A DNA stretch of 64,000 nt. Origin: Opitutales bacterium (GTDB lineage: Bacteria; Verrucomicrobiota; Verrucomicrobiia; Opitutales; Coraliomargaritaceae). Location of the stretch: the NCBI GenBank assembly GCA_030729385.1, contig JANQXM010000021.1, forward strand, positions 22,270-86,269, in the 5' to 3' direction. The notes below the pieces were generated by a model. It was not told the origin of the DNA and made no database searches. It was given only the letters and a program-made list of their open reading frames with translations. Below, one piece after another: positions 51,893 through 54,684 of this stretch. Position 1 is the first letter of the stretch. Every line of letters starts with the position of its first letter. The translations under genes and the position numbers were made by a program.

Positions 51893-52231
51893 ATGCCCAC
51901 CTACGTTTACCAAGAAATCCTCCCAGACGGTTCAGACGGCGAAGCCTTTGAATACATCCAACGCATGGCCGACGATCCAATGAAGACCCATCCACGAACC
52001 GGCAATCCGGTCCGCAAAGTCTTCCACGCCCCCAACGTATCGAGCAAATACACCGAAGGCGCGACCAAGAACAAATTGACCGACGAAAACGTCGAAAAAC
52101 ACGGCTTCACTCGCTACGAAAAAGACAAAGTCACCGGTCGGTATCATAAGACCGCCGGCAAGGACAAGCGCGCCCCCGATGTCGTGGATGCCAACAAGCT
52201 AAAAGAGATCCAAAAGAACGGACTGGTGTAA
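51893..52231 (+). CDS. FmdB-like small protein without zinc cysteines
   Basis: 112 aa. The start (MPTYVYQEILPDG) and the HPRTGNPVRKVFHAPNVSSKY segment follow the FmdB/zinc-ribbon small-protein layout, where a CxxC ribbon usually lies early. No cysteine occurs at all here, so the zinc site is lost or the family is a zinc-free branch. The C-terminal half is basic and hydrophilic. Role unknown. Its upstream gap holds the octamer iterons. Confidence 0.65.
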   Translation: MPTYVYQEILPDGSDGEAFEYIQRMADDPMKTHPRTGNPVRKVFHAPNVSSKYTEGATKNKLTDENVEKHGFTRYEKDKVTGRYHKTAGKDKRAPDVVDANKLKEIQKNGLV

Positions 52232-52349: not shown

Positions 52350-52373
52350 GTAGCCACGTCACTCTGTGACGTG
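52350..52373 (+). repeat. REP-type palindrome (GTAG head), copy A1
   Basis: GTAGC followed by a hairpin CACGTCAC-TCT-GTGACGTG. The 5' GTAG tetranucleotide next to a palindrome is the layout of REP elements moved by REP-associated tyrosine transposases. Both arms are altered together relative to copy B2 (CACGGCAC/GTGCCGTG), keeping the pairing. Confidence 0.75.
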
Positions 52374-52407
52374 ATCGTCAGCATAGTCTATATCAGCTAA
52401 AACAAAA

Positions 52408-52432
52408 CACGGCAGGAGACTGCCGTGGCTAC
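52408..52432 (-). repeat. REP-type palindrome, copy A2 (inverted)
   Basis: CACGGCAG-GAGA-CTGCCGTG followed by GCTAC, the reverse of copy A1. With A1 it forms a pair with both GTAG ends outward, about 34 bp apart, as in REPIN-type units. Confidence 0.75.
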
Positions 52433-52714
52433 AATATTAAGTCAGGCTGTATATTTCGTCTCTTCGCACCCAATATCACCACTTCAGGAACTTCGCATTT
52501 GTCGGAATCAAAAAGTAACGTTTTCCAGGGAAATCAACTCTTCCTAAAAGCGTGACAACTTCTCGATCCTAGAGTTTAAAGGCAATGGACCGTTGCTCAA
52601 CGCGTCTAACATGAACCCCGACCCCTCAATTCCCACACAAACCAAATCCGTCAAATGCGTCATTCAAGGACGCAGATAACACTGATATACAGAAGAGTGA
52701 ACCCAGATTTTTAA

Positions 52715-52797
52715 CCGCTTAATCACGCTTAATGAACGTTTAACCAGCACGACGAAAGAGATCTCATTTTAAGCGTAAATTAAGCGTGATTAAGCGG
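52715..52797. repeat. 19-bp perfect inverted repeat
   Basis: CCGCTTAATCACGCTTAAT at 52715-52733 and its exact complement at 52779-52797 (ATTAAGCGTGATTAAGCGG), with a 45-bp spacer. The right arm also contains iterated TTAAGCGT units. No gene is enclosed. It may be a small transposon-derived element or an iterated binding site. Confidence 0.7.
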
Positions 52798-52950
52798 ATC
52801 CAGCTCCGCTGGCCTCTGGGAATATTTAAATTGAAGGAATCCACGTTCTAACCAGTCTGAACGAATCTAAAAAGTCCCACTGAAATGAACCTTAACCCCA
52901 TCGAATCGTCGAACCTCATTGCACTCCCCTATGGTATATCCAGGCGCGGT

Positions 52951-52998
52951 GATCAACTCCGTTCGTGCCTCACTCCGTGAGCACGCTCTACGTTAGGT
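52951..52998 (+). other. attC-like site (first)
   Basis: R'' GATCAAC, 7-nt spacer, L'' GTG-C-CTCAC, 3-nt loop, L' GTGAGCAC, 7-nt spacer (GCTCTAC), R' GTTAGGT. The stem pairs perfectly except for one extra base (C52968) in L'', the feature that sets attC strand choice. GTTAGGT fits R' GTTRRRY; R'' fits six of seven. At 48 bp it is shorter than most attC sites, so confidence is moderate. Confidence 0.55.
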
Positions 52999-53381
52999 TA
53001 AGAATTTATGAGCGCTCCAGTAGTCCACCACCAACAAAACCGGTGTATGCGCCGCTTCAACGACGCGGGAGCGGTTAGTCAACAGCAAGCGGCGACACTG
53101 GATGAGATCGGAACAGGCGATTCTCCAGTGCTTCGTTATTTGCAGTCACGTGGTGTAATTGTCGAAGCGGGCATAGGACGGTTTTACCTCGACGTCGAAG
53201 CGGAGCATAGATTCCGTCGATCGCGGTTGGTTTTTACGGTTACAGTGATTGCTGTAGCTCTAGCGATTCTCGCGGTGGTTGCCCTTGCAACAGGAAGAAC
53301 CTAACAAGACGCTGCATCCAACGGCGGGCAACGTCCTTCTTTGAATTCGGGCTTTCCTCCCCGCCGTGGATGAGCTAGATG
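52993..53381 (+). mobile_element. candidate integron gene cassette
   Basis: One gene with one attC site. The cassette would begin at TTAGGT after the G of GTT (52992) and end at the G of 53381. The R'' of its own attC is ACCTAAC, the exact complement of its GTTAGGT start, as a circularised cassette requires. The gene starts 15 bp inside and its stop codon lies inside R''. No integrase is visible, so it would be part of a CALIN-type cluster or a decayed array. A second, broken gene follows. Confidence 0.6.
53008..53304 (+). CDS. cassette-borne membrane protein of unknown function
   Basis: 98 aa. A soluble N-terminal part is followed by an Arg-rich RFRRSRL segment and one transmembrane helix at the C-terminus (about 72-93, VFTVTVIAVALAILAVVALA). 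The 'SPVLRYLQSRGVIVEAG' stretch is a winged-helix-like or small mixed fold. No homologue recognised. It lies between two attC-like sites, and its TAA is part of the R'' ACCTAAC, so it is probably an integron cassette gene. Confidence 0.6.
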   Translation: MSAPVVHHQQNRCMRRFNDAGAVSQQQAATLDEIGTGDSPVLRYLQSRGVIVEAGIGRFYLDVEAEHRFRRSRLVFTVTVIAVALAILAVVALATGRT

Positions 53382-53387
53382 TTCTCA
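53299..53387 (+). other. attC site of the cassette
   Basis: R'' ACCTAAC (53299-53305); L'' CATCC-A-ACGGCGGG (53315-53328) pairs with L' CCCGCCGTGGATG (53360-53372) with a single unpaired A in L''; R' GTT at 53381. The 89-bp length and the loop of about 31 nt are inside the normal range for attC sites. The R' of the next cassette is GTTCTCA, a poorer match to GTTRRRY. Confidence 0.7.
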
Positions 53388-53390
53388 GAA

Positions 53391-53764
53391 ATGGAATTAA
53401 CTCAGGACATTTTAATACAGTCGCTGAAACATATAGTGCGAACGGCTGATGAGATGTTAAATGCCGAAGAAATGAATGGTGACGCCCTACTTCGTTTAGA
53501 ACGAGAGGTCTTTAATATTCAGAGGAATTAGATGACTTTACGGAAACGAATAGTCTTTTAATCGAAGCTGTTCGAGGGATACACATCCGAATGGATCGAT
53601 CAGCACTAGACAAGGAACAGAATGGTTTTAGGACATTCATATTGGACCTTCTTCCTCATCATATCGGTATGTATTTTAGAGCCGAGGATCAGCAAGAAAT
53701 CGCACAAGTAATCCACGATATCAAAGGTCAGGTCGACCATGCCTTATTCACGCTAAAGATATAG
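53391..53764 (+). pseudogene. frameshifted gene after the attC site
   Basis: From the ATG at 53391 the frame reads MELTQDILIQ and ends at a TAG (53529-53531). A shift of one frame at about 53520 opens EELDDFTETNSLLIE, which continues to a TAG at 53762-53764. The two halves together would make a charged helical protein of about 125 aa, family not recognised. A single base insertion or deletion explains the break; a sequencing error is possible. It starts 10 bp past the R' of the attC site, as a cassette gene would. Confidence 0.55.
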
Positions 53765-53814: not shown

Positions 53815-54684
53815 TTAATGGTTATGGCCATGATGACTATGCTCAGGATGACTATTTGCGGGAGCGATTACAGGGCTCACATCACCTGGATTGAAGCGTA
53901 ACAAATACTGGACTTCCAAGATGCTTTCGAGTGTGCGGATACGCTCTAAAATGATGTTCTTCTGGGCGTAAGGATCGTTGGGGAGTTCTGAGTATAATTC
54001 ACGCAGGTAGTCGTAGGCTTCGCGGTCGAGGCCTTGCCTCCTTAGGAGCTCGGCGTAAATCCGTGCGGCGAAGTATGGCGCATTGGGCATCTTGGATGTT
54101 TTCAGAAACCAATCGGCGGCGTTGGGAATATCCTTTAAGCGGTTGAGGTAAATCTGTGCGACTTCGACCACGAGCTTGGGCTCGTCGGGATGGAACTCGC
54201 GCGCCTTTTCTAAGAAGATAAAGGCCTGTTCAGCTTGTTCTCGATTGATTTCATCTTGGCGGGAATCCGGCACCTCGGAGTAGCCCCCTTCTTCTCTAAT
54301 GCGCCAATTAGGGACATCGTAAGCGATCATACGGGCTCCGTTGAACCAGAAAAAGCTTTGGCGCGGGTCCAGAGTTGTGGAGAGCCGGATCATCGCATCG
54401 AGCTTGGTGCGGTCGCGACGCTCCCAAATGGTATTTACTCGAATCCACATGAAATCGGCCATAATCGCGCGAAACCCACCGAGCACGCCGACGACGAGTC
54501 CCTGCCCTAGTGAGCCTTCAATGCCTTCTAAGTTGAGCTCTGATTGCCCAGATTTCACCACTTGCCACGCGGGTGACTCAATCGGGCGTAGCAGCGCGCC
54601 GACAAAGATCAGGACTAGCAAGACGACTACGATGCGACGCAGACGTATAACTAATGGATGCTCTATGAATGAACCTTCGTGCAT
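53815..54684 (-). CDS. membrane-anchored TPR-like protein with His-rich tail
   Basis: 289 aa. One transmembrane helix near the N-terminus (about 18-36), then a helical domain: a 'GFRAIMADFMWIRVN' motif, followed by TPR-type pairs such as AFIFLEKAREFHPDEPKL and IYAELLRRQGLDREAYDYL. The C-terminus is HPEHSHHGHNH, a possible metal-binding tail. It ends the acylphosphatase/ABC operon, 4 bp after the permease gene. It may assist assembly or transport by the ABC partner. Confidence 0.65.
   Translation of the reverse strand: MHEGSFIEHPLVIRLRRIVVVLLVLIFVGALLRPIESPAWQVVKSGQSELNLEGIEGSLGQGLVVGVLGGFRAIMADFMWIRVNTIWERRDRTKLDAMIRLSTTLDPRQSFFWFNGARMIAYDVPNWRIREEGGYSEVPDSRQDEINREQAEQAFIFLEKAREFHPDEPKLVVEVAQIYLNRLKDIPNAADWFLKTSKMPNAPYFAARIYAELLRRQGLDREAYDYLRELYSELPNDPYAQKNIILERIRTLESILEVQYLLRFNPGDVSPVIAPANSHPEHSHHGHNH

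Follow-up and report, generated by a model that had tools for sequence, protein, structure and literature searches.

Gene cassettes behind a repeated attI-like leader in an Opitutales genome assembly without an integron integrase

Is a small gene that lies between two hairpins, with no integrase in view, a gene cassette of an integron, and if so, at what site was it inserted? The question is raised by a locus in a 64,000-nucleotide stretch of DNA (hereafter the window) borne by contig C21 of an Opitutales draft genome (2.59 Mb, 73 contigs, 99.6% complete by markers), where an original prediction had placed one cassette between two attC-like sites. Clusters of attC sites without an integron integrase are termed CALINs (IntegronFinder 2.0, PMC9024848); such loci occur commonly, and the view given in PMC9024848 is that they represent integrons in decay or fragments left by assembly, while passages of PMC9668308 and PMC12444791 describe their cassettes as mobilisable in trans.

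Our analysis indicates that the segment 52485-53381 is very probably an integrase-less integron that consists of an attI-like leader, which may include a cassette promoter, and two gene cassettes (Table 1). With two cassettes behind such a leader in an assembly without an integrase, the locus is a CALIN by definition, having at least two attC sites and no intI nearby; intI adjoining attI and attC sites, as in a complete integron, is not found in this genome.

Table 1. Features at and around the cassette locus (positions in the window)
Feature	Position	Strand	Remarks
FmdB-type zinc-ribbon gene	51893-52231	+	left neighbour of the locus, adjoins nuo cluster
attI-like leader	52485-52684	+	last ~200 bp common to five loci
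Candidate cassette promoter, GTGACA - ~17 nt - TTTAAA	~52547-52580	+	six leader copies retain both hexamers and the distance between them (alignment)
Cassette 1	52685-52992	+	no convincing ORF; ends GATATAC/GTATATC match exactly
attC1, native genus type	52934-52998	+	model R1: 71 bits, E=3.2e-20
Cassette 2, as originally predicted	52993-53381	+	389 bp; G^TTAGGT ... ACCTAAC-attC-GATG^
98-aa orphan ORF in cassette 2	53008-53304	+	codon score atypical for host
attC2, widespread type (TAACAAGNCGCTGCA...TGAGCT..)	53299-53387	+	covariance model: 36 bits, E=1.2e-8
TPR gene	53815-54684	-	right neighbour of the locus

Two cassettes with different types of attC

The cassette of the original prediction is real: its start GTTAGGT (52992-52998) and its end ACCTAAC (53299-53305) fit each other exactly, and the stop codon of its gene (TAA, 53302-53304) lies within the R'' box of attC2, as had been claimed. 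It is the second of two, however. Because GATATAC at 52684-52690 is the exact complement of the attC1 R'' box (GTATATC, 52934-52940), a further, ORF-less cassette lies at 52685-52992, adjoining the ~200-bp leader on its left and terminated by attC1. Cassette 1, the leader with its six other copies and the presence of two attC types had all been missed. A third cassette starting from GTTCTCA was considered and rejected, as TGAGAAC is absent downstream.

In both window cassettes the R'' box and the cassette's own start are complementary at 7/7 positions. The same exact 7/7 complementarity was found in 13 of the 24 attC pairs in arrays of the genus, compared with 0.8 exact pairs expected for shuffled partners, and none of 20,000 shuffles reached 13. 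Both sites carry the AAC/GTT core with a crossover at G^TT or G^AT (ACCTAAC...GTT and GTATATC...GTTAGGT).

Covariance models R1 and R2, which were built in this analysis and are distinct from the attC_4 model of IntegronFinder, independently score the two hairpins that had been proposed to flank the gene, with the correction that the left site starts at 52934 and not at 52951. A single unpaired base in each L'' had also been proposed; this needs correcting, as the stem of attC1 has one bulged G (52949) together with an A.G mismatch and that of attC2 contains two extrahelical bases, G53314 and A53321. Rfam gave zero matches, and simple regex and stem scans for attC returned noise or nothing.

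The R' box of attC1 is GTTAGGT (52992-52998). The 512 bp upstream of the left site are 90% identical to contig C1, with shorter pieces elsewhere in the genome, and the aligned copy ends gave a native consensus of RNNNAWC-CAG(T/A)CGC-A(G)CTATC...GATAG-T..-CTAC-GWTCnnn. Model R1 was built from 11 copies with attC1 left out, one training copy (C1) being a close relative of attC1 and the others not. Stem covariation in the native model was 0.262 versus 0.153 in shuffled alignments (0/500), and compensatory changes back the stem. The attC1 hairpin alone is thermodynamically unremarkable (z ~ -1 by shuffle folding); the site is significant by homology and covariation. We dropped the idea that the left hairpin is a mere dispersed-repeat end, as its copies form arrays, covary and flank intI.

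attC2 is of a different type, with the layout ACCTAAC-AAGAC-GCT(G)CATCCA(A)CGGCGGG...CCCGCCG-TGGATG-AGC-TAGAT-GTT, in which R''/R' pairing is followed by GCT/AGC, CATCCA/TGGATG and CGGCGGG/CCCGCCG. The folding z-scores were -2.2 and -2.6 for the two strands, beating 195-197 of 200 shuffles. Its R' side, GTTCTCA, is supplied by flanking DNA; basal pairing in situ is limited to AAC/GTT, as expected of the last attC of an array, and the full 7-bp R''/R' pairing is available to the excised circle alone. Among GTDB contigs, the pattern YYTAACAAGNCGCTGCANCNRACNG matched 105 stretches from many phyla, several of them with 4-6 tandem copies that are clear arrays. The covariance model built from 25 of these 105 stretches, chosen with clear R' boxes and again from diverse phyla, showed a stem covariation of 0.240 versus 0.099 (0/500 shuffles) and had attC2 as its sole match in the 64-kb window; model R1 matched only attC1 and, at 11 bits (E=0.72), attC2 there. 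The bulged G occupies an equivalent position in the native and the widespread type. Because the short motif of the attC2 type is present in only 2 of 44 family genomes, cassette 2 bears an attC type that is uncommon in the family.

The 98-aa product of cassette 2 has one C-terminal hydrophobic segment after a basic stretch and is therefore, judged by eye, probably a small membrane-anchored protein. No relatives were found in GTDB contigs, IMG/VR, PLSDB, the family genomes, Pfam, NCBIfam or PHROGs. Cassette genes usually encode orphan proteins of this kind.

Three further elements were observed in the same region. Within 52685-52810, cassette 1 contains an inverted repeat of 19 bp that is nearly perfect (CCGCTTAATCACGCTTAAT / ATTAAGCGTGATTAAGCGG). 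Immediately downstream of attC2, two ORF pieces that overlap (53379-53531 and 53522-53764) resemble a single frameshifted gene; these pieces had no family match and no further attC. A REP-like palindrome at ~52350-52436 (GTAGCCACG...CGTGGCTAC) has dozens of copies in the genome and is unrelated to the attC sites.

An attI-like leader at seven loci

Copies of the ~200-bp leader are located on C1, C71 and C13, at a second place on C21 (C21:12084) and at the window locus, and all of them stop at the same crossover G (52684). On the left side, similarity to C13 reaches 52449, and that to C71 goes further still. The leader ends in ...GATAACACT^G, with the crossover before cassette 1, and its terminal ~23-30 bp (CATTCAAGGACGCAGATAACACT^G) occur at seven loci of this genome, the more diverged copies retaining mainly the junction-proximal end. 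At six of the seven loci the cassettes begin at exactly the crossover G and are mostly different, with the first cassette in common between the window and C1; C39 is ambiguous. A downstream attC model match was found at five of the seven loci, and an exact R'' match at C72, C39 again being ambiguous. The downstream R'' is the exact complement of the post-junction bases at C13, C71 and C72 and matches them at 6/7 positions at C1 and at the second C21 locus (C21:12k).

Because the leader-attC shuffle test comprised only five pairs, several of which start alike, its result (694/20,000) is weak by itself, and it is the breakpoint comparisons that carry the argument. Around the junction G52684, the window and the sister-species locus G001:C52b match at 6/30 positions on the left and at 32/45 on the right; for C71 and G001:C99, the corresponding values are 7/30 and 38/45, and the G001:C99 copy sits after an attC. 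One relative of cassette 1 lies mid-array on C42, between two attCs, and another, on G001:C52, begins at precisely the base where cassette 1 does and follows unrelated DNA. Because the start base is the same, the cassettes are mostly different and their relatives follow other DNA, the leader behaves as an attI-like insertion site and is a repeatedly used recombination point.

The fixed crossover followed by different first cassettes that is typical of attI was thus found at six leader loci, but the leader does not adjoin an intI gene. Because none of the family genomes has it beside an intI, and a search of 373 genomes of the order gave no convincing further copy, we name it attI-like only; that it is a working attI is suggested by its junctions. 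The 23-base end motif had zero matches in the congeners and one in a genome from another genus of the family (G030), and the four further 2-mismatch matches among the 373 genomes occurred at a rate like that of the reversed control. Long similarity of this leader type to the attI of related integrons is absent; the intI-proximal junctions in the congeners G001 and G002 end in ACT^G and CTT^G, a short motif that resembles the leader end. Short attI remnants that lie inside cassettes, have core ends like AAACAAAGTT and AATAAAATGTT and undergo recombination are described in PMC12901181, and the leader end in the window (GATAACACTGAT) is of the same general shape.

The alignment of the leader copies suggests a cassette promoter, which may be real and is a candidate that falls below the threshold of a plain consensus scan. 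A conserved 22-codon leader ORF, comparable to ORF-11 of class 1 integrons, was considered and rejected, since the C72 copy lacks it.

Arrays and integrases in the genome, genus and family

The original prediction named attC sites that a model fails to score, and hairpins without counterparts elsewhere, as grounds against a cassette; the opposite was found, with both sites scored and ~15 further attC sites in the genome. The largest array, on C42, has five attCs at a contig end and includes a RelB/YafQ pair, and smaller arrays lie on C13, C71, C1, C11 and C21. The native model detected 10-12 sites in each of the three genus genomes. The 4.6-kb contig G002:C67 holds eight model-detected attCs, spaced ~400-700 bp apart, with orphan genes and a Phd-YefM/YoeB-like pair.

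The absence of an integrase from view extends to the whole assembly, in which nothing exceeded the curated TIGR02249 cut-off for integron integrases and the two matches are XerC and XerD. Integron integrases over this cut-off were found in 17 of 44 family genomes; G001 has three of them and G002 has two, and both congeners encode full-length IntI. At G002:C22, G001:C99 and G001:C52, intI is divergent from native-type attCs, which is the standard layout. Together with cross-species cassettes that break at the crossover base, these integrases support the suggestion of integron activity in this lineage.

Two such cassettes have ends that are crossover bases: one for a PEP-CTERM protein, with 95.7% identity between two species (G000:C42:164000-172360; G002:C67), and one for RelB/YafQ, with 89% between G000:C42 and G002:C40. 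Many integron integrases of the family are 445-516 aa long (e.g. L074:4882-6237 and L068:7587-8924) and carry, ahead of the usual SAM-like domain, a ~130-aa N-terminal extension that falls outside all Pfam models.

The integron might be complete in the organism, with the draft assembly simply lacking the intI contig, a reading that we consider a serious possibility while leaning against it. Arrays are known to break assemblies (PMC9024848), several intI contigs of the family end shortly past intI, and a contig end interrupts the C42 array on the side that bears intI in the congeners, so that an assembly gap is possible there. The marker completeness of the genome argues against this reading, as do the ordinary chromosomal genes to the left and right of the window locus. 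Moreover, at C11 (G000:C11:18500-24500) an attI resembling that of G001:C52 (31 bp, 90%) is followed by a cassette, and a galK (galactokinase) gene, not intI, stands where intI is expected, which points to real loss of intI at this site. Real loss at C11 and an assembly gap at C42 may both be true. A search for an empty orthologous site of the window locus found unrelated DNA in the fmdB-TPR interval of G002 and an assembly break at the corresponding position of G001.

Insertion, alternative readings and implications

In the integrase-less integron that we favour, an integron integrase would have inserted each cassette by recombining the folded bottom strand of its attC with the leader, in double-stranded form, at ...ACT^GWT. 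Because new cassettes enter at attI as a rule, the 98-aa gene cassette would be the older one, and the ORF-less cassette would have been placed ahead of it later. Excision would proceed by recombination of attC1 with attC2 or of the leader with attC1, and recombination may still be occurring. The integrase could have been lost, could lie within an assembly gap or could act after transfer from relatives. We put forward only tentatively that the genome keeps seven attI-like platforms at dispersed positions, the majority with cassettes and perhaps promoters of their own, and that these are served in trans by one integrase that is encoded elsewhere, transient or supplied by relatives, forming a distributed integron and not one linear array.

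The leader could instead be a dispersed repeat that contains an attG-type genomic target into which an outside integrase repeatedly inserted cassettes. Cassette insertion outside integrons has been described (cited in passages of PMC12444791 and PMC12901181) and, like the cassettes considered here, those at attG sites are inserted into a GWT/GTT core that is distant from intI; the leader, too, adjoins none of the intI genes found. We nevertheless regard this reading as unlikely: no empty leader copy was identified among the seven loci, the junction base is identical at all of them, the more diverged copies preserve chiefly the part next to the junction, and the end motif resembles the intI-adjacent junctions of the congeners. 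In addition, attG sequences are diverse, whereas the junctions in this genome have one common leader sequence. It is highly improbable that the hairpins represent a repeat of REP-like or transposon origin with no relation to integrons, since the family of the left hairpin, although dispersed in the genome, has its bulged G where the widespread type has it, compensatory changes, ~400-700 bp arrays (G002:C67), own-end complementarity and intI-adjacent positions.

The integrase-less integron resembles the sedentary chromosomal integrons of Vibrio, Xanthomonas and others in its taxon-specific attC, its toxin-antitoxin and orphan cassettes and the cassettes common to related species, but it differs from them in that intI was not found in the window genome and the arrays are small and scattered. 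Passages of PMC12444791 describe several intI-less CALINs at fixed loci in Xanthomonas genomes, with progressive integrase loss; the several intI-less arrays per genome are similar, but a shared attI-like leader at separate loci is not reported in those passages. CALINs are thus already known, and CALIN calls normally lack an attI, whereas here an attI-like leader heads the array and recurs at seven loci. In a partial and weak search of the literature, we found no description of such a leader repeated across one intI-less genome.

These results document integrons that have an attC type of their own, in a lineage that is little mentioned in searchable integron papers, and the locus supplies exact, testable cassette boundaries. 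If the repeated leaders function as attI sites although intI is missing, cassettes could also be captured away from the locus of the integrase gene, and surveys of just intI and attC would overlook platforms for first cassettes.
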